From positions 2,385,906-2,449,905 of the forward strand of contig NZ_CP046155.1 of assembly GCF_016403105.1 (NCBI RefSeq): 64,000 nucleotides of DNA, given 5' to 3'. Below, piece after piece: positions 38,023 to 48,335 of this stretch (position 1 is the stretch's first letter; the number at the start of each line of letters is the position of its first letter). The DNA comes from Leptolyngbya sp. BL0902. GTDB taxonomy: Bacteria; Cyanobacteriota; Cyanobacteriia; Phormidesmidales; Phormidesmidaceae. The notes under the pieces are model-generated. The model made no database searches and was not told where the DNA came from. It worked only from the letters and a program-made list of their open reading frames with translations. Made by a program: the position numbers and the translations under genes.

Positions 38023-38886
38023 TCAAAGTTCCTCGTCGGCCAGTTCGCGCTCTAGCTCTAGGCTGAGGGGTTGGGCCAGTTCTTCGGTGGCCGAGGCTTC
38101 CAGGGCCAGGGGTTCGGCCACGGCTTCTTCCTGCTTGGCCTCCAGGTTGATGGGCAGGCGTAGGGGTTGTTCTTCCTCCATTGCCGCCTGGGGCAGGGAG
38201 TCCGCCAAGTCATCCAAGGGCCGAGGAATCACCATTACTGCATGGAGTTCGCCGATGCGTTCCGCTTCGTGCATTCCGGCTTCGATGGCAATGGCCACGT
38301 TGGGCAATGAGCCGCGAATCAAAATCGTACAGAGCCCGTCGCCAATGGTTTCGTGGGAAATCAGCTCCACATCGGCGGATTTGGTCATGGCATCCGCTGC
38401 GCCCACCATGGCCGGAAAGCCCCGCGTTTCCAAGAGCCCAATGGCTTGACTGCCCAGCCGACTTTTGCCTTCGCGCCGCAGTTGTTCCCACCGGGCACAG
38501 ATGGGCAGCACTGCTTCCAGATTAGGCAAAGGCCGAGGAATCAGGCTGGAGGACGCCGTTTGGCCCGCCTCTTCCACCGCTTCGACGCCCGCCGAAACCG
38601 CCATCCGCACGTTGGCCACCCCGCCCCGCACAATGGCCGTACAAAGGCCACTTCCGGTTTTTTCGTAGCCGACGAGATACACATCAGCGGCCTTCAGCAT
38701 GGCATCCGCCGCCTTCACTACCACCGGAAACCCCGCTGCCGACACCATGCCCAGGGCCGAGCCACGGTACTTGTCAAACCGACTTTTAGGCTCCGACTGA
38801 CTGGCGGGAGGGGTGGCCAGGTTCAGCTTAGCCTTGGGGGCCAATTTCAAGTCTTGTTTTGAGGCTAATTTACCGTCGGCTTGCAT
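38023..38886 (-). CDS. ccmO: Carboxysome shell protein CcmO (tandem BMC)
   Basis: 287 residues with two bacterial-microcompartment (PF00936) domains in tandem: about 40-125 ([20 protein letters not shown], then [20 protein letters not shown]) and 145-235 ([36 protein letters not shown]). The two halves differ from each other, as in CcmO of Synechococcus 7942. It forms pseudo-hexamers that may be inserted in the shell facets or edges. The N-terminal ~35 residues are Lys/Ala/Ser-rich. It is the last gene of the ccm operon, 37 bases after ccmN. Confidence 0.95.
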
Positions 38887-38923: not shown

Positions 38924-39730
38924 CTAAGGCTTGTCCTCAGGAGACACACCCCCGGACGTGACACCATTTAACGGCTGCCGATGGGGAAACAGCTTGGATA
39001 GGAGGTCTTGCACCTGCTTTTGCCCGTGGGCGGGTGGACGGGTGCCGTTAGAAGGGATGGGTGAATCGGCCTGATCAGCCGGATCGGCTTCCAATTCTAC
39101 GTCACCACCTCCCTTTTCCTTAGTTTCGGCCTCATTGGAGAGGGACGGGGTAGACGTGTCAGCCGCGTTGTCTTGAGAGGTTTCGGAAAGTGTCTCTTGA
39201 ACGAAGCTTTCCTGCGGAGAAGTGACTTGAGCAGGGATTGCTTGAACTGAGGTTGCCTGAATAGGGGTTCCTTGAATGAGTGTCTCTTGGGCAGATCTTT
39301 CCTGAACCGATGCGTCTTGAATCAATGCAGCTTGCTGGAAGGCCACTGGATTCGGGGCCGTTCCGTTTGCAGAAGACTGGCTGGGATCGCCCAATAGAGA
39401 GTTAGGGGGCACCACTTGGCCGGACGAAATCGCGGGATTAATCAGGGTGCTTTCTGCGCCAATGCAGGCGTTTTGGCCAATGCGTCCGGCACCAACAATC
39501 AGCACACCGCTGCCCAGTACCGCCCCCGGTTCAATCACCACATCTCCCCGGACGGCCTGGATAATCACGCCGCTGCCCACGCACACCCCAGGGGCCACCA
39601 CCAACCGACAGCCCGGAGCCGCATCCAGCACCACACAATCGCCAAGGGCCACGCCCTCGGCTACCTCAACCTGTCCCCCCAAAGCAGGAGCGTCAGGATT
39701 GGCAAGTGCCGTTGGCAGTGGCCCTATCAT
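38924..39730 (-). CDS. ccmN: Carboxysome assembly protein CcmN
   Basis: 268 residues. Residues 1-130 are a left-handed beta-helix of hexapeptide repeats (VVLDAAPGCRLVVAPGVCVG, then GVLIVGAGRIGQNACIGAES). A disordered Gln/Ser/Thr linker (about 130-230) follows. Near the C-terminus, QKQVQDLLSKLFPHRQPL (about residues 236-253) fits the encapsulation helix that binds the CcmK shell. CcmN connects CcmM-Rubisco cargo to the shell. It lies between ccmM (31 bases) and ccmO. Confidence 0.94.
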   Translation of the reverse strand: MIGPLPTALANPDAPALGGQVEVAEGVALGDCVVLDAAPGCRLVVAPGVCVGSGVIIQAVRGDVVIEPGAVLGSGVLIVGAGRIGQNACIGAESTLINPAISSGQVVPPNSLLGDPSQSSANGTAPNPVAFQQAALIQDASVQERSAQETLIQGTPIQATSVQAIPAQVTSPQESFVQETLSETSQDNAADTSTPSLSNEAETKEKGGGDVELEADPADQADSPIPSNGTRPPAHGQKQVQDLLSKLFPHRQPLNGVTSGGVSPEDKP

Positions 39731-39761: not shown

Positions 39762-41084
39762 TTAAGGACGCTGGATGGTGACTTCCGCCGCCCGCCGCTT
39801 GGCCTTGGGATCCACGGCAACTAGGCGAACATACTCGCCCTGGTGTGCCCGCAGTTGGCCATCAATGGCGGCCAGCAAATCCGAGACGCGGCTCCCTTCT
39901 AGGGTGGCGCAGGTCTTCCATACGTTGCTGCGATAGCGACGCTGATCAGCGGCCTCTAGGCTGAGACGATAGCCCTGGTTGACAAACTGGTTCACCTGTT
40001 GGGCGGTGTCTTGGCTGAGACCTTGACCGCCGCCCTGGCTGGCCGGAGCAGGGGCGGACGCTTGGGGTGCAGAGTAGGACGCTACGGGAACACTGGGGCC
40101 GGATGCGGGGGCTTGACCAGGCCGTTGTACGGTCACTTCAGGCCCACGGCGCTTGGCTTTGGGGTCGATGCCGAAGATGCGGACATACTCGTTGGGGTAA
40201 GCGGCCATGCACTGAGACACCGCCGCCAGTACCTCGTTCTCGCGGTTGGAGGTGATGGGAGCGCAGGTTTGCCACACGCCACTGCGGTAGCGACGGGTAT
40301 CGGCGTGCTCGGCCCCAATGTGGTAGCCCTGGCTGATCAGTTGCCGCACCTGCTGGGCGAGGTCGCCACTGAGGTTCACGGCACCACCGCTGGCCGGACG
40401 CTGACCCACGGAACGGCCAAAGCCTGTCCCCGCTGGAACCGAGGAGCCGCTAACGGGCTTGCCATCGGGCCGCTGAATGGTGATGGGTGCAACCCGCTGG
40501 TTGGCGCGGGGGTCAATGCCGAACAGGCGCACGTATTCCCCGGCATGATCGGCCAGACAGGCTTCTAGGGCCGCTAGTACCTCCCCCTCACGGTTGGAGG
40601 TAATGGGAGCGCAGGTCTGCCACACGCCGCTGCGATAGCGACGGCCATCGGCGTGCTCGGTGCCGATGCGGTAGCCCTGGCTGATAAACTGGCGCACCTG
40701 ATTCACCACCTCAGCGGACAGGGATCCCGCCGCCACCGCCGCCGGACGGTAGGCTTGGCTGGCCCCGCTGGAAACCGCAGGCACAGAACCATTCACCTCA
40801 ACGGCCTTGCCATCGGGCCGCTGAATCGTCACCGGAGCCACCCGCTGCTTGGCCTTGGGGTCGATGCCGAACATCCGCACATACTCGCCCCGGTGCTCGG
40901 CCAGACAAGCCTCTAGGGCGGCAAAGGCTTCCCCTTCACGGGTGGCCTGGATGGGGCTACAGGTTTGCCACACCCCACTGCGGTAGCGGCGATTGTCGGC
41001 GTGCTCGGTGCCAATGCGCAGACCTTGGGCCAAATACTGGCGCACCCGCTGCACAACATCGGGGGAAAGCTGTTGAGATTGCAT
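39762..41084 (-). other. ccmM: Candidate short form of CcmM from an internal start
   Basis: An ATG at 41084 begins MQSQQLSPDVVQRVRQ, exactly where the first small-subunit-like repeat starts. Upstream GGATTAGGTACT gives a weak AGG ribosome-binding site 4 bases before it. It would yield a 440-residue protein with all four repeats, as the short CcmM (M35) made by internal translation in other cyanobacteria. Confidence 0.5.
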
Positions 41085-41738
41085 AGTACCTAATCCATCG
41101 CGTTCGTTTAAGTTGGAGCCAGCTAAGTTAGAGCCTGCCAAAGCCGAGGGCGACTCCGCCGATAGGGCGTTCAGCTCAGTTGATAAAGCATTCAAATCAG
41201 CGGGGGCGGGGCCATAGCCGAGCAATTCTCGCACCAGAGCCAAGTCTTGGGGGCTAACGTCCGGCAAACCATCGGCCTGACTTTGGCGGGTAATCACCGA
41301 TCCCGACGGCACCAATTTGCCTGGGGGAACCTCCACATCCTGCACTAGGGCGTGCATCATCACAATGCTGTTGGCCCCCAGGCGGGCATTGAAAATGGTG
41401 GAGCGAAACCCGATGAAAACGTTGTCGCCAATGTAGGCTGGGCCTTGAATCAGCGTCCGGTGGGTGAGGGTTGCGCCTTGACCAATCCAGACGGTGTAGG
41501 GTCGCTGGTCATCGCCAAGCACCCTAGCCTGACCCAGACCGTTAATCGTGACCCCTTCCTGGATAACCGTGCGAGAACCCACCACACAGGTTGCTCCCAC
41601 CTGAGCCCGCAAAGCCGCGCTGGGGGCAATCGCCACCCCCTGGCCTAGGCGCACATCGCCCACGGACTCAAACCTAGAGAAAGCTCCCTCAGAGGTGGCA
41701 TCCGACACCCGAGACGCCGCCAGCGTGCTGACCGTCAT
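39762..41738 (-). CDS. ccmM: Carboxysome scaffold CcmM, degenerate carbonic anhydrase domain
   Basis: 658 residues from the ATG at 41738; the frame opens at 41819. Domains: N-terminal gamma-carbonic-anhydrase beta-helix (about 25-185), then four Rubisco small-subunit-like repeats, each with RRYRSGVWQTC or close, from about 225 to 658. The repeats crosslink Rubisco. Zinc ligands of the active family are His in VVIHGLE, THxxLIHGP (two); here the positions read Asn66 (TINGLG), His93 (LTHRTL) and Gln98 (LIQGP), so two of three are lost. An internal ATG at 41084 precedes the first repeat and may give a short form. Confidence 0.96.
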   Translation of the reverse strand: MTVSTLAASRVSDATSEGAFSRFESVGDVRLGQGVAIAPSAALRAQVGATCVVGSRTVIQEGVTINGLGQARVLGDDQRPYTVWIGQGATLTHRTLIQGPAYIGDNVFIGFRSTIFNARLGANSIVMMHALVQDVEVPPGKLVPSGSVITRQSQADGLPDVSPQDLALVRELLGYGPAPADLNALSTELNALSAESPSALAGSNLAGSNLNERDGLGTMQSQQLSPDVVQRVRQYLAQGLRIGTEHADNRRYRSGVWQTCSPIQATREGEAFAALEACLAEHRGEYVRMFGIDPKAKQRVAPVTIQRPDGKAVEVNGSVPAVSSGASQAYRPAAVAAGSLSAEVVNQVRQFISQGYRIGTEHADGRRYRSGVWQTCAPITSNREGEVLAALEACLADHAGEYVRLFGIDPRANQRVAPITIQRPDGKPVSGSSVPAGTGFGRSVGQRPASGGAVNLSGDLAQQVRQLISQGYHIGAEHADTRRYRSGVWQTCAPITSNRENEVLAAVSQCMAAYPNEYVRIFGIDPKAKRRGPEVTVQRPGQAPASGPSVPVASYSAPQASAPAPASQGGGQGLSQDTAQQVNQFVNQGYRLSLEAADQRRYRSNVWKTCATLEGSRVSDLLAAIDGQLRAHQGEYVRLVAVDPKAKRRAAEVTIQRP

Positions 41739-41852: not shown

Positions 41853-42155
41853 CTAGCTAAAATCGTGCCGCTTGTCGTAGAGGGCACCGCTGTCGAGGCT
41901 GACGGTATCAACAATGGCGATCACCGCTGCATCCACCGGACGCCCCTCATAGCCGGGATGTTGACGGGCACCGCTGCCTTGGGTAATCAACACCCATTCC
42001 CCTGTCCCTGCGCCGACCACATCTGCCGCTACGGTGTAATCGGGGAGCAAGTCCCCCGTTTCGCTGATGAGCTGCACCAGCAAAAATTTCACACCGCTGA
42101 GGCTGGGCTCTTTGCAGGTGCTAACCACCGTGCCGCGCACCTTAGCCAAGAGCAT
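41853..42155 (-). CDS. ccmL: Carboxysome pentameric vertex protein CcmL
   Basis: 100 residues of the EutN/CcmL family (PF03319), pentamers that cap the icosahedral corners. It starts MLLAKVRGTVVSTCKEPSL and contains GAGTGEWVLITQGSGAR, the conserved centre, and VDAAVIAIVDTVSLD. It is 7 bases before ccmK1 in order of transcription: ccmK1 ends at 42163. Spacing to ccmM is 114 bases. Confidence 0.97.
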   Translation of the reverse strand: MLLAKVRGTVVSTCKEPSLSGVKFLLVQLISETGDLLPDYTVAADVVGAGTGEWVLITQGSGARQHPGYEGRPVDAAVIAIVDTVSLDSGALYDKRHDFS

Positions 42156-42162
42156 GGCTTAC

Positions 42163-42501
42163 CTATCTGCCGTAGGGACGAATACCGCTGACGCTCTCGC
42201 GGAACTGTTCCACCGCTTCGGTGTAGCGAATGGGCAGCACGAACTCTAGGTTTTCGTGGGGGCGGGCGATGATGTGGGTGGACAGCACTTGGCCACCGTT
42301 CACGCGCTTAACATTTTCAATACCAGCGGCCACAGAGGCTTGCACCTCAGACACATCGCCACGGACGATGACAGTGACGCGACCGCTACCAATTTTTTCG
42401 TAGCCCACCAGGGTGACGCGAGCGGCTTTCACCATCGCATCGGCGGCTTCCACCACAGCGGGGAAACCCAGCGTTTCTACCATACCAACTGCAATTGCCA
42501 T
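42163..42501 (-). CDS. ccmK1: Carboxysome shell protein CcmK1
   Basis: 112-residue single BMC-domain shell hexamer. The pore motif KIGSGR is intact ([16 protein letters not shown]). It differs from the neighbour at 42699 mainly by a 10-residue C-terminal extension ([11 protein letters not shown]), the length difference that distinguishes CcmK1 (about 111) from CcmK2 (about 103) in Synechocystis. Name assignment rests on that length and on gene order. Confidence 0.93.
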
Positions 42502-42698: not shown

Positions 42699-43007
42699 CT
42701 AGCTTCGGAACTGCTCCACAGCCTCGGTGTAGCGAATGGGCAACACAAACTCAAGGTTTTCGTGGGGACGAGCAATGATGTGGGTAGACAGCACTTCGCC
42801 ACCGTTGACGCGCTTGGCGGATTCCACCCCAGCGGACACAGACGCTTGCACTTCGGACACATCACCACGCACGATCACGGTGACGCGACCGCTACCGATT
42901 TTTTCGTAGCCCACCAGGGTTACACGGGCGGCTTTCACCATGGCATCCGCCGCTTCCACGACAGCCGGGAAACCCAGGGTTTCAATCATTCCAACAGCAA
43001 TTGGCAT
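42699..43007 (-). CDS. ccmK2: Carboxysome shell protein CcmK2
   Basis: 102-residue BMC hexamer, first gene of the ccm operon, with the ribosome-binding site GGAGATTACGAC before the ATG. The body ([40 protein letters not shown]) is almost identical to CcmK1 but stops earlier. The gap of 197 bases before ccmK1 shows no gene. Promoters probably lie in the divergent region 43008-43721. Confidence 0.95.
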
Positions 43008-43721
43008 TGTCGTAATCTCCTTGTTAAATCTAGATCTTTTCCCCTGCGTTCACCCAGGAATTCAGCCTTTATTGGCAGCATGAACAGTCCCGAACTCATC
43101 AAGAAACGGGATTTGCTCAAGGTTAGTGAAGGCGAAAAGAGCTGATTTCTCTTTGATGACAACCTAAGCATAGGTGTCGATTGACACTTTTGCAATATAA
43201 GTCTCAATGATTGTTGCTAATGTTGAGTATTATTAAACCTTATCCCCAAAGCCCTTGCGAAAGCGGCCATTGGCGGCTCTTTCCGGGGTGAGTCCTCACC
43301 CTCATTTAGGGTCTGCCAGGGGGCTGCTGTTGACCTGAGTCGCCCTCTATCGCCACCTAAAATTGATGGATGCCAGAGTTGCAGTATTAAAATTATATCT
43401 GGGCATTGCATTGATATAAATCAATTGTTTTGGTCGCTGGGCATGATCTCCGGGGGGATTCACGAATCGGGTAGGATGATGGCTAACGGCTGATAGCTCG
43501 GTCTGGCCTTCTGGGTTTTGGGGCGGGCGAGGGGGTGCAGATCAACGGTTGGAATCCGCCATCCCGGCATCGCTTCGTTCACATATCTTAATGGTGCAAT
43601 GGCCACGAATTCGTCAGGCTGGAAGGAGTAGGTCTGCGGTGACGCCCTCTTTCCCGATGGGTCAGCGTTGGGTGGATGGGTGGCCTGTCGCAGATTGTTT
43701 AGACGAGGTAGTGACGAATTT
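43008..43721. promoter_or_regulatory. Divergent control region between ccm operon and ndhF
   Basis: 714 bases, no supported gene; small frames here are not convincing. It includes AT-rich blocks at about 43140-43245 and 43375-43430. A dyad ATTGAT-ATAA-ATCAAT lies at 43410-43425. LysR-type CcmR/CmpR regulators control inorganic-carbon genes in relatives and bind AT-rich dyads, so this is the place to look for their sites; binding here is inference. Confidence 0.55.
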
Positions 43722-45557
43722 ATGAACCAAATGTGGGTGGAGACAAGTTGGCTGCTGCCAATCTATGGGCTGCTGGGGGTGGTGTTGGCCCTGCCGTGGT
43801 CTATGGGCTTTATCCGCCGCACGGGGCCAAGGCCAGCAGCCTACCTCAACATCGCCATGACGCTGTTCGCCTTTATCCACGGCCTGTTGGTATTTCAGGG
43901 CATTTGGAATGAAGGTTCCCAGGAACTCGTTTTCTCCTGGTTCAAGTTTGCCGACCTGCATTTAGAGCTGGCCTTTGACATCTCGGTGCTGAACCTGGGG
44001 GCGCTGGAGCTGATTACCTTCCTCAGTCTGCTGGCCCAGGTGTTTGCCCTAGGGTATATGGAAAAGGACTGGGCCTTGGCTCGGTTTTACTCCCTGATGG
44101 GGTTCTTTGAAGCGGCCATGAGCGGCTTGGTGCTGAGCGGGTCGCTGTTCGTCTCCTACTCGCTGCTGGAGATGCTGACCCTTTCCACCTACCTGCTGGT
44201 GGGCTTTTGGTATGCCCAGCCCCTCGTCGTCACCGCCGCCCGCGATGCCTTTTTGACCAAACGCATTGGCGACGTGCTGCTGCTGATGGGCGTCGTAGCC
44301 CTGGCGGCAATGGCCGGAAGCCTAAACTTTAACGACCTCTATGGGTGGGTCAAAACCGAAAATCTTTCGCCCCTGGTGGGGACGCTGCTGGGGCTGGCGC
44401 TGATTGCGGGGCCGATTGGCAAATGCGCCCAGTTTCCCCTGCACCTGTGGCTGGATGAAGCGATGGAAGGGCCGAACCCAGCGTCGATTTTGCGAAATTC
44501 CGTCGTCGTCACCTGCGGGGCCTACGTGCTGATTCGCCTTCAGCCGATTGTGGTGCTGTCCCCTGTCACCTTGGGGGTGCTGATTGCCCTGGGCAGCATT
44601 ACGGCCATCGGGGGTTCCCTGGTGGCCCTGGCCCAGATTGACCTGAAGCGGACGCTGTCCTACTCCACCAGCGCTTACCTGGGTCTGGTCTTCGTGGCCG
44701 TGGGGACAGAGTGGCCCGGTGTGGCGATTACCCTGCTGCTCACCCATGCGGTGGCCAAGGCGCTGCTGTTTATGGGGGTGGGCAGCATCATCACCACCAC
44801 CACCAGCCAAAACCTCACGGAAATGGGCGGTTTGTGGTCACGGATGCCCGCGACGACCCTGGCCTTTGTGATTGGCTCCCTGGGCATGGTGGGAATTTTC
44901 CCCCTCGGCTGCTTCTGGGGGCTGCGGATGGGGGCGGATTTCCTCAGCCAGAGTTCGCCCCTGCTGGCCTTAGTTTTCCTCTTGGTGAATTTCTTAACGG
45001 CCCTGAATTTGACCCGTGTCTTCCGCCTGGTCTTTCTGGGGCAGGCCCAGCCCAAAACCCGCCGCGCCCCAGAGGTGCCCTGGCCGATGGCGGTGCCGAT
45101 GGTATCCCTCTCCATCGTGACCCTGCTGGTGCCCGTGATGATGGCCCGGATGTCGCTATTGCCGCCCGTGGAGTATTTGAACTGGCCCGTAACCGCCCTC
45201 CTGGTGGCCTTTGGGGTGGCAGGGGTCGCCCTGGGATCGGCGATTCCCCTGTCCAAGTCCCTGGCCCGGTCGCGCAATCGTCCGGTGCGGATTCTCCAAG
45301 ACCTGTTGGCCTACGACTTCTACACCGAACGGCTCTATGCCAACACCGTGGTCGCCGCCGTGGGAGGGCTGTCGCGCCTGAGCAATTGGTTTGACCGCTA
45401 CGTGGTGGATGGCCTGGTGAATGCCGTCGGCCTAGCGTCACTCTTGGGCGGAGAAAGCCTGAAATACAGCGTTTCTGGCCAATCTCAACTGTATTTGTTC
45501 ACCATCATGGCCGGGGTGGGCCTGATTGGCGTTTTCATGACCTGGAGCCTGTGGTAG
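43722..45557 (+). CDS. ndhF4: NDH-1 subunit NdhF of the CO2-uptake complex (NdhF4 type)
   Basis: 611 residues from the ATG at 43722, integral thylakoid membrane protein, 14 or more helices, homologous to NuoL. Conserved segments include LEMLTLSTYLLVGFWYAQP, KCAQFPLHLWLDEAMEGPNP and SYSTSAYLGLVF. It forms, with NdhD and CupB, the CO2-to-bicarbonate module of NDH-1. I assign the F4 type from context: adjacent ccm operon, a CupB-length partner and no cupS; sequence alone does not let me exclude NdhF3. Stop overlaps a possible GTG of ndhD. Confidence 0.9.
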   Translation: MNQMWVETSWLLPIYGLLGVVLALPWSMGFIRRTGPRPAAYLNIAMTLFAFIHGLLVFQGIWNEGSQELVFSWFKFADLHLELAFDISVLNLGALELITFLSLLAQVFALGYMEKDWALARFYSLMGFFEAAMSGLVLSGSLFVSYSLLEMLTLSTYLLVGFWYAQPLVVTAARDAFLTKRIGDVLLLMGVVALAAMAGSLNFNDLYGWVKTENLSPLVGTLLGLALIAGPIGKCAQFPLHLWLDEAMEGPNPASILRNSVVVTCGAYVLIRLQPIVVLSPVTLGVLIALGSITAIGGSLVALAQIDLKRTLSYSTSAYLGLVFVAVGTEWPGVAITLLLTHAVAKALLFMGVGSIITTTTSQNLTEMGGLWSRMPATTLAFVIGSLGMVGIFPLGCFWGLRMGADFLSQSSPLLALVFLLVNFLTALNLTRVFRLVFLGQAQPKTRRAPEVPWPMAVPMVSLSIVTLLVPVMMARMSLLPPVEYLNWPVTALLVAFGVAGVALGSAIPLSKSLARSRNRPVRILQDLLAYDFYTERLYANTVVAAVGGLSRLSNWFDRYVVDGLVNAVGLASLLGGESLKYSVSGQSQLYLFTIMAGVGLIGVFMTWSLW

Positions 45558-45559
45558 CC

Positions 45560-47146
45560 ATGCTGAGCGTACTGATTCTGATCCCGTTAATTGGCGCACT
45601 GGCGGTTATCCTTTGGCCCGGAAAAATTACGCCGCTCACCGCAAAATGGGTCAGCGGCGGCACCATCGGCCTAACGCTGCTGTGGGTGATTTTTCTGGCG
45701 ACCCAGTTTGACATCACTACACCGGGCTTTCAGTTTGAGGAATTGCTGCCCTGGGTAGAGCCGCTGGGCCTCAGCTATCGCCTAGGGCTGGACGGTCTTT
45801 CCCTGCCCTTGCTGGTGGTGAATAGCCTGCTGGGGATTGTCGCCATCTACATCAGCGACCCCCACCTGCATCGGCCTCGGCTGTATTACGCGCTGATTTT
45901 GGTGATCAGCAGTGCCGTGGCGGGGGCGTTCCTCTCGGCTAACCTGCTGCTGTTCTTCATCTTTTACGAATTAGAACTGATTCCCCTGTACCTGCTGATC
46001 GCCATCTGGGGCGGGGCACGGCGGGGCTATGCGGCCACCAAGTTTCTGATTTACACCGCTCTCTCGGGGATTTTGATCCTCGGTGCCTTCCTGGGCCTAG
46101 TGTGGCTGTCGGGCAACACCAGCTTTGACTACGACAGCGGCTTGGCGACAGCGTTACCCCTGGCCCAGCAAATCATCCTGCTGGTGGCGCTGCTGATTGG
46201 CTTTGGCATTAAGGTACCGCTGTTTCCCTTCCATACCTGGTTGCCCGATGCCCATGTTGAGGCGTCTACTCCGGTTTCCGTGCTGCTGGCGGGGGTGCTG
46301 CTGAAGCTGGGCACCTACGGCCTGGTGCGGTTTGGCCTGGGCCTGTTCCCCGATGCCTGGATGGCCCTGGCTCCGGTGATGGCGACCTGGGCGGTGATCA
46401 GCGTTCTGTATGGTTCCCTCGCGGCCATTGCCCAGACCGACATGAAAAAAATGGTGGCCTACAGCTCCATTGGTCACATGGGCTATGTGCTGCTGGCAGC
46501 GGCGGCTTCGACCCCCCTCAGCATTGTGGGTACGGTGTTCCAAATGGTGAGCCACGGGCTGATTTCGGGCCTGCTGTTTTTGCTGGTGGGGGTGGTCTAC
46601 CACACCACGGGCACCCGCGATCTCACCGTACTGCGCGGCCTGCTGAACCCAGAGCGGGGCTTACCCTTCGTCGGTTCCCTGATGATTTTGGGGGTGATGG
46701 CCAGTGCAGGGATTCCCGGCATGGTGGGCTTTATCTCGGAATTTCTGGTGTTTCGGGGCAGTTTCCTAATTTTCCCGGTGCAAACGCTGCTTTGCATGGT
46801 GGGGTCGGGCCTGACGGCGGTGTACTTCCTGCTGCTGGTAAATCGGGCCTTCTTTGGACGGCTGGCGGTGGCTCCCCCCAGTGGCTCCCCCCAGTTGGAT
46901 GTTGACCTGCCGGGTGTGACCTGGCGCGACCGCCTGCCCGCCCTGGCCCTGGCCAGCCTGATTATCGCCTTTGGCCTTCAGCCCAACTGGATGGCCCGCT
47001 GGAGCGAACACACCACCCTCGCCCTCCACGAACCCTACCAAGGCTTTGTCCAGGCCAGCATCCTACGGATGGCTCCCCTGAACGAGTCCCTCGTCGCCGA
47101 TACCCTAGTGATGGATGCCCCAGCAACGACCCCGCTGCTTCCCTGA
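45560..47146 (+). CDS. ndhD4: NDH-1 subunit NdhD of the CO2-uptake complex (NdhD4 type)
   Basis: 528 residues from ATG 45560, two bases after ndhF; an upstream GTG at 45551 would overlap ndhF. NuoM-like antiporter fold: the key Glu in FFIFYELELIPLYLLIAIWG, the Lys/Pro segment GFGIKVPLFPFHTWLPDAHV and KMVAYSSIGHMGYVLL are all present, so the proton path looks intact. It is followed by cupB after 55 bases. Confidence 0.9.
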   Translation: MLSVLILIPLIGALAVILWPGKITPLTAKWVSGGTIGLTLLWVIFLATQFDITTPGFQFEELLPWVEPLGLSYRLGLDGLSLPLLVVNSLLGIVAIYISDPHLHRPRLYYALILVISSAVAGAFLSANLLLFFIFYELELIPLYLLIAIWGGARRGYAATKFLIYTALSGILILGAFLGLVWLSGNTSFDYDSGLATALPLAQQIILLVALLIGFGIKVPLFPFHTWLPDAHVEASTPVSVLLAGVLLKLGTYGLVRFGLGLFPDAWMALAPVMATWAVISVLYGSLAAIAQTDMKKMVAYSSIGHMGYVLLAAAASTPLSIVGTVFQMVSHGLISGLLFLLVGVVYHTTGTRDLTVLRGLLNPERGLPFVGSLMILGVMASAGIPGMVGFISEFLVFRGSFLIFPVQTLLCMVGSGLTAVYFLLLVNRAFFGRLAVAPPSGSPQLDVDLPGVTWRDRLPALALASLIIAFGLQPNWMARWSEHTTLALHEPYQGFVQASILRMAPLNESLVADTLVMDAPATTPLLP

Positions 47147-47201
47147 TCGTCCATCCCCCCGCCGCCCCCCTTGCCGATAGCCCTATCGAGACCTCACAGC
47201 C

Positions 47202-48335
47202 ATGACCCACACCCTCCCCAAACCCGCGTCGGTGCATCCCCTAGAGCCATTCATCGACCGTCTGCTGTCGGCGGATGCCCTGCTGCCGCACTCGGACACC
47301 AACGTGCTGGAGGTGGTGGGCATCCTCAAAAGCTACGGGGTGGTGCTGGATGCCTACTCGAAAAACCTGATCTACATCGCCGATCATCAGTTTTTGGTGC
47401 TGTTTCCCTTTTTCAAATACTTCAATGGTGAGGTGTCCTTCGGGAAATTACTCAAGCACTGGTGGCACGACCGCATCAACTTCGAGTACGCCGAATACTG
47501 CATGAAGGCCATGCTCTGGCACGGCGGCGGCAAAATGGACGAGTACTTGGACTCCGAAGAATTCCTAGCCCTCTGTCGCACAGCCACCACGGCCAAAACG
47601 AAATCGAATCCCCTTGTACGCAGCATCAACGCCGTTTTTCCCGATTTCCTCACCGAGCAAGTGCGCCAACTCGCCTACTACAGCGCCCTCGGCCAGTTTT
47701 GGCGGGTGATGAGCGACCTGTTCATTGACCTCTCCGACGCCTACGACGCTGGCAAGGTCAACACGATTCCCGAAGTAGTGGCCTTCATCAAAGCGGGCCT
47801 GGTTGCCGCCGCCAGTAACCCGATTACCTACAGCGTCAACATCAACGGCCAAACCTACGACCTCATGCCCAAATCGGCAGGGCTCACCTTTTTGATGGAT
47901 GTGGCGGTGCCCTACGTGGAGGCCGTCTTTTTCCGGGGTGCGCCGTTTTTGGGCACGGTCTCCTACAACGCCCAGGCCAACCAAATCCCCGCCGAACAGG
48001 GCCAATTCCAGTACGGTGCCCTCTACGCCGACCCCATCCCCGTGGGCGGTGCGGGCATTCCCCCGACGCTGCTGATGCAGGATATGCGCCACTTTCTGCC
48101 GGATTATTTGACCGAGTTCTACCTCGCCAGCGGTCGCGGCCTGGATGATGTGCGGGTGAAGATTTGCCAAAGCTTCCAAAAATCCATGTTTTGCGTCACC
48201 AGTGCCTCGTTGCAAGGCTTGCTGCCCCACGCCGCCGACACCACGAACCCCCAAGAGCAGGTCGCCAACCGGGATTTTCTCGCCGCCTGGATGGATCGGC
48301 TGATGACCTCCCGTTTGGATGTGGTGCAGCTTTAG
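47202..48335 (+). CDS. cupB: CO2 hydration protein CupB (ChpX type)
   Basis: 377 residues, soluble protein that docks on NdhF/NdhD and hydrates CO2 vectorially, thought to use a zinc site. CupA/CupB signatures seen are YSKNLIYIADHQFLVLFPFF, HWWHDRINFEYAEYCMKAML and RQLAYYSALGQFWRVMSDLF. CupA proteins are longer (about 450); 377 fits CupB, and no cupS follows. His and Cys residues in HWWHDR and EYCMK could supply metal ligands. It is the last gene of the ndhF-ndhD-cupB operon. Confidence 0.9.
   Translation: MTHTLPKPASVHPLEPFIDRLLSADALLPHSDTNVLEVVGILKSYGVVLDAYSKNLIYIADHQFLVLFPFFKYFNGEVSFGKLLKHWWHDRINFEYAEYCMKAMLWHGGGKMDEYLDSEEFLALCRTATTAKTKSNPLVRSINAVFPDFLTEQVRQLAYYSALGQFWRVMSDLFIDLSDAYDAGKVNTIPEVVAFIKAGLVAAASNPITYSVNINGQTYDLMPKSAGLTFLMDVAVPYVEAVFFRGAPFLGTVSYNAQANQIPAEQGQFQYGALYADPIPVGGAGIPPTLLMQDMRHFLPDYLTEFYLASGRGLDDVRVKICQSFQKSMFCVTSASLQGLLPHAADTTNPQEQVANRDFLAAWMDRLMTSRLDVVQL

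Follow-up and report, generated by a model that had tools for sequence, protein, structure and literature searches.

The N-terminal domain of the CcmM encoded in this carboxysome locus appears to be a catalytically dead, probably zinc-free γ-carbonic anhydrase (CA)-like trimer, kept as a carboxysome hub that would dock CcaA; we put the probability of this reading at about 0.88. CcmM inactivity in CcaA-bearing cyanobacteria is already known. The new detail is a metal site that is dismantled throughout the genus and carries a fixed Gln.

The carboxysome locus

The window is the whole 64,000-nucleotide stretch of DNA that was analysed. NCBIfam matches identify a β-carboxysome locus on its minus strand, with ccmK, ccmK, ccmL, ccmM, ccmN and ccmO in consecutive order.

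42699-43007, minus strand: ccmK-type shell protein, 102 aa; top NCBIfam matches under their cut-offs
42163-42501, minus strand: ccmK-type shell protein, 112 aa; top NCBIfam matches under their cut-offs
41853-42155, minus strand: ccmL; NCBIfam 152.1 bits, cut-off 125
39762-41738, minus strand: ccmM, 658 aa; γ-CA-like N-terminal domain and four Rubisco-small-subunit-like modules
38924-39730, minus strand: ccmN; NCBIfam 115.2 bits, cut-off 100
38023-38886, minus strand: ccmO; NCBIfam 321 bits, cut-off 270

CcmM was assigned to NCBIfam NF053794 with 652.6 bits against a cut-off of 550. Four RuBisCO_small (PF00101) stretches were found in the protein, in agreement with the initial annotation, which had described four intact Rubisco-binding repeats. 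Modules 1 to 3 have cysteine pairs (260/278, 376/394 and 492/510), and the fourth (39762-40100, minus strand) has a single cysteine at position 610. In CcmN (38924-39730, minus strand), short Gln-rich motifs (VQE, IQG, IQA) are repeated along a long linker that precedes the C-terminal segment. Adjoining the locus on the opposite strand are ndhF3, ndhD and chpXY (CO2 hydration protein) at 43668-48335 (plus strand), a set that corresponds to the CO2-uptake form of NDH-1.

The zinc-ligand columns of CcmM

The catalytic positions of the γ-CA-like domain were located as follows.

41199-41738, minus strand: γ-CA-like domain, residues 1-180; two His in all
41598-41603, minus strand: Gln46-Val47, replacing Asp-Glu of active CcmM (alignment to solved CcmM)
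41541-41543, minus strand: AAC codon of Asn66, at the first zinc-ligand column (Thermosynechococcus CcmM has His)
41460-41462, minus strand: CAC codon of His93, kept at the second zinc-ligand column (codon count from the ATG at 41738)
41445-41447, minus strand: CAA codon of Gln98, at the third zinc-ligand column, which is Gln in 26/26 genus genomes

A phmmer search aligned residues 66, 93 and 98 without gaps to the His of CcmM in PDB entries 3kwc/3kwd (Thermosynechococcus elongatus BP-1) and 7d6c/7o4z (which we take to be CcmM of S. elongatus PCC 7942). The Asn66, His93 and Gln98 codons (AAC, CAC and CAA) that had been proposed from the DNA alone are confirmed to the base. The Thermosynechococcus protein aligns with the domain over residues 20-178 and has His-His-His with Asp-Glu, whereas the window CcmM has Asn-His-Gln with Gln-Val. 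The 7d6c/7o4z protein also has all three ligand His, in contrast to the window CcmM, which is without two of them. The only His in residues 1-180 are at positions 93 and 129, so a three-His site is impossible under any alignment and other histidines at the ligand positions are ruled out. Within the stretch that reads RADEG in the active enzyme, Arg44 is kept and Gln46 and Val47 stand for Asp and Glu; we take these two columns to be Asp61 and Glu62 in Cam numbering. The Glu62-equivalent column thus holds Val47, compared to Glu in 3kwc, and Gln60 is also kept. The Cys pair found downstream of the domain in Thermosynechococcus CcmM is missing, and Cys51 is the sole Cys before residue 260. With two of three ligands, the Glu62 equivalent (Val47) and the C-terminal Cys pair lost, it is very unlikely that the domain hydrates CO2, which supports the structural scaffold proposed in the initial annotation.

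The dN/dS of the domain was 0.04 against G002, 0.09 against G021 and 0.15 against G018, the last with a dS of 1.8 that is close to saturation. These low values indicate that the domain is maintained; its catalytic parts alone are gone. A hexapeptide match is present in the domain sequence. The AlphaFold model is poor (pLDDT 67.5), and Foldseek returned no match at E 0.001 and no γ-CA fold, so the assignment of the γ-CA fold and the putative trimer rests on sequence homology.

CcaA and other carbonic anhydrases of the genome

An inactive CcmM had been taken to mean that the organism needs a second carboxysomal CA, and the genome search found one. The single Pro_CA gene encodes CcaA (G000:C1:187852-188637, 262 aa from its ATG), which scores 159.5 bits against PF00484 and contains the intact β-CA Cys-Asp and His-Cys motifs (CSDSR and GHTQCG). 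The closest solved structure is CcaA 5swc (E 8e-94). The protein ends in RLSPEQAARLYRGAVV, a C2-like tail resembling the GWLAPEQQQRIYRGNAS tail of S. elongatus CcaA, which binds the CcmM γ-CA-like domain according to the accessible part of PMC8580825. By analogy, the structural role of the CcmM domain probably includes holding CcaA, which refines the scaffold reading.

The genome also has an α-CA gene. Its sole other γ-class match is a 211-aa protein with 30% identity whose ligand stretch (ILHGD, GHRAVIHS) retains His; neither of these proteins is known to be carboxysomal. A search for CsoSCA gave no match in this genome and none in the control genomes either.

Ligand states across the genus and family

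The family search gave a CcmM-type match in 62 of 63 genomes, and the main copy was read in 61 (26 in the genus of the window and 35 outside it). Among named relatives, Phormidium sp. FACHB-1136 and several Nodosilinea records come nearest, which makes the genus probably Nodosilinea sensu lato. Ligand loss is genus-wide (26/26 genomes) and is no chance state. The ligand states are Tyr-His-Gln (14 genomes), Tyr-Tyr-Gln (9), Asn-His-Gln (2) and His-His-Gln (1), which places Tyr in the first column in 23 genomes, Asn in 2 and His in 1. Gln98 is encoded in 26/26 genomes, by CAG in 16 and CAA in 10; of 153 columns, 50 are invariant, this one included. No genus copy has Glu at the Glu62-equivalent column (0/26), and no Cys pair follows the domain in the 24 readable main copies. 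Outside the genus, at least one ligand is lost in 16 of the 35 family genomes, and Gln also occupies the third ligand column in other genera of the family. Two family copies, L108 (G028, Gln-Cys-Tyr) and L109 (G029, Gln-Pro-Gln), have no ligand His remaining; both genomes carry CcaA with the tail. Among viral contigs, the 31 pattern matches included no relatives.

A domain that still binds metal through altered ligands (Asn or Tyr, His, Gln) could have residual or different catalysis. Retention of His93 in 17/26 genus copies and of Gln98 and Gln60 in 26/26 indicates that the pocket is not freely drifting, a point in favour of such a site. However, 9/26 copies are Tyr-Tyr-Gln and have no ligand His, and neither the Glu62 equivalent nor the Cys pair is present, which makes an altered metal site improbable.

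Ligand loss and the presence of CcaA

CcaA was found in 42 of the 45 genomes of the family and phylum sample that have an unbroken ligand-lost main CcmM; one of the 45 main copies (G075) is a fragment. It was not found in G006 (97% complete), in G075 (61%) or in G024 (84%), which carries three His-His-His satellites. In 18 family genomes CcaA accompanies a main copy that has His-His-His, which indicates that CcaA permits the loss and does not force it.

The phylum sample comprised 244 genomes, of which 109 matched. The 92 that were read exclude 17 matches at 33-41% identity that belong to other classes of the phylum. An unbroken main CcmM that has lost a ligand His was found in 5/92 genomes, and one further genome has a broken gene. 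CcaA presence was scored as a match at E 1e-30. His-His-His was present in 43 of the 44 CcaA-less genomes, and the gene of the remaining genome (G249) is broken. This gene (L198) is interrupted by one stop and reads His-Tyr-His in a 3.0 Mb genome. The CcaA-bearing genomes numbered 48, counting some short matches (e.g. G104 with a stop, G107 and G257) that may not be CcaA proper; His-His-His was found in at least one copy in 44 of them and a ligand-lost main copy in 5, including G054, which also has an intact satellite.

The association is weak in this sample, as ligand loss in 5/48 CcaA-bearing versus 1/44 CcaA-less genomes gave p 0.21 by Fisher's test, or 0.058 with the broken gene excluded. 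A tree-aware test of ligand loss against CcaA was not significant (median p 1), and its 3 supported independent pairs are too few for a test. The tree contained 169 rows with the ligand columns removed and needed at least 6 changes; L198 (broken gene), L086 and L088 (damaged starts), L205 (fragment) and L035 (second copy) were left out. The genus lies within a group of 36 ligand-lost rows whose support is only 73, which leaves it uncertain how many times the ligands were lost separately. Outside the family, the Cys pair was present in 13/14 readable CcaA-less genomes versus 10/25 readable CcaA-bearing genomes; these counts cover the readable rows, as in the others the tail lay beyond the reach of the pattern or of the sequence that was fetched.

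G006 belongs to the same genus (L009, 590 contigs, Tyr-His-Gln), and neither CcaA nor another Pro_CA or an α-CA was found in this assembly. Either the assembly has a gap at this point, or the carboxysome of G006 has no known CA. The gene that neighbours ccaA in the genome of the window lies elsewhere in G006, but it lies elsewhere in the ccaA-bearing G018 too and is uninformative on the absence of ccaA from G006.

Satellite CcmMs

Short satellite CcmMs share their domain family with the window CcmM and differ from it in retaining His-His-His, which was read in 17/17 rows from 15 genomes (L073-L088 and L190); two rows have damaged starts and a third (G014) an irregular start. The Cys pair is also present in 17/17, and the adjacent active-site letters are kept or readable as Arg-Asp-Glu in 14. 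The one satellite that was scanned has one Rubisco-binding module. Fifteen of the 17 form one clade (support 98) separate from the main copies. With these proteins (e.g. L075, L081 and L085), catalysis and scaffolding may have been divided between two CcmMs. Short CcmM copies are known from a few genomes, and Sommer et al. suggest that they add activity in a strain that lacks CcaA (PMC5853843, accessible part).

CcmM activity could have moved to such a satellite, a γ-CA domain with one Rubisco-binding module, instead of to CcaA. The intact ligands and Cys pair are consistent with this, as is the occurrence of a satellite alongside a ligand-lost main CcmM in 5/26 genus genomes. The genome search found no satellite CcmM in the genome of the window, where the other γ-class match is the 211-aa protein. 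A transfer to satellites can thus hold for some relatives only; it is refuted for this organism and overall has a very small chance of being right. A sequencing or assembly error or a decaying gene has nothing in its favour and a negligible probability, as G002, an independent relative at 97% identity, also has Asn-His-Gln with an AAT codon, Gln98 is present in 26/26 genomes, and the low dN/dS rejects a pseudogene.

Discussion

The first report on CcmM activity in relation to CcaA presence is said to be that of Pena et al. 2010. CcmM is described as inactive in CcaA-bearing and active in CcaA-less cyanobacteria in the accessible parts of PMC9120777, PMC10172474, PMC9865033 and PMC13249358, the last of which words it as mostly inactive where CcaA is present. 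The same available text describes the Thermosynechococcus elongatus BP-1 CcmM as active in a strain with no CcaA, with a Cys194-Cys200 disulfide and a requirement for the Cys pair (PMC13249358). The CcmM (M58) proteins of S. elongatus PCC 7942 and Synechocystis PCC 6803 resemble the window CcmM in having a γ-CA-like scaffold, Rubisco-binding modules and CcaA in the strain, and are reported to be non-functional as CA (PMC9120777 and PMC9865033, in the portions available). Because the PCC 7942 protein is called non-functional in the accessible part of PMC9120777 and 7d6c/7o4z keeps three His, ligand loss is not required for CcmM inactivity. No description of zinc-ligand replacement in CcmM was found in the accessible parts of the papers cited here or of PMC5226100; one may have been published elsewhere. 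A search of the open literature found no paper on CcmM in Nodosilinea.

Some γ-CA-like subunits of plant mitochondrial complex I, a different protein in a different complex, have lost the ligands and retain the γ-CA fold in a structural role, and this family is among the phmmer structure matches of the window CcmM. In the proposed hub, the CcmM domain would trimerise, carry the four Rubisco-binding modules and dock CcaA via the C-terminal peptide of CcaA, and CcaA would produce CO2 within the shell. We propose that this production of CO2 by CcaA released the CcmM metal site from selection, with the rest of the domain remaining under strong selection.

The vacated zinc site may instead have been rebuilt. 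Gln98, Tyr/Asn66 and His/Tyr93 might together plug the subunit interface through hydrogen bonds and without a metal, which would lock the trimer permanently in an assembly-competent state. This is a tentative idea that we consider doubtful, but such a role would leave Gln98 invariant, as it is in 26/26 genomes with both codons, and would fit the Gln that other family genera have at the same position. If true, the plug would make scaffold assembly independent of zinc and of the redox switch by which active CcmM is controlled.

Close relatives provide a natural CcmM series of His-His-His, His-His-Gln, Asn- or Tyr-His-Gln and Tyr-Tyr-Gln, which makes the part of the metal site in assembly versus catalysis testable. 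These CcmMs would also offer zinc-free scaffolds for carboxysome engineering in which CcaA alone would give the activity.
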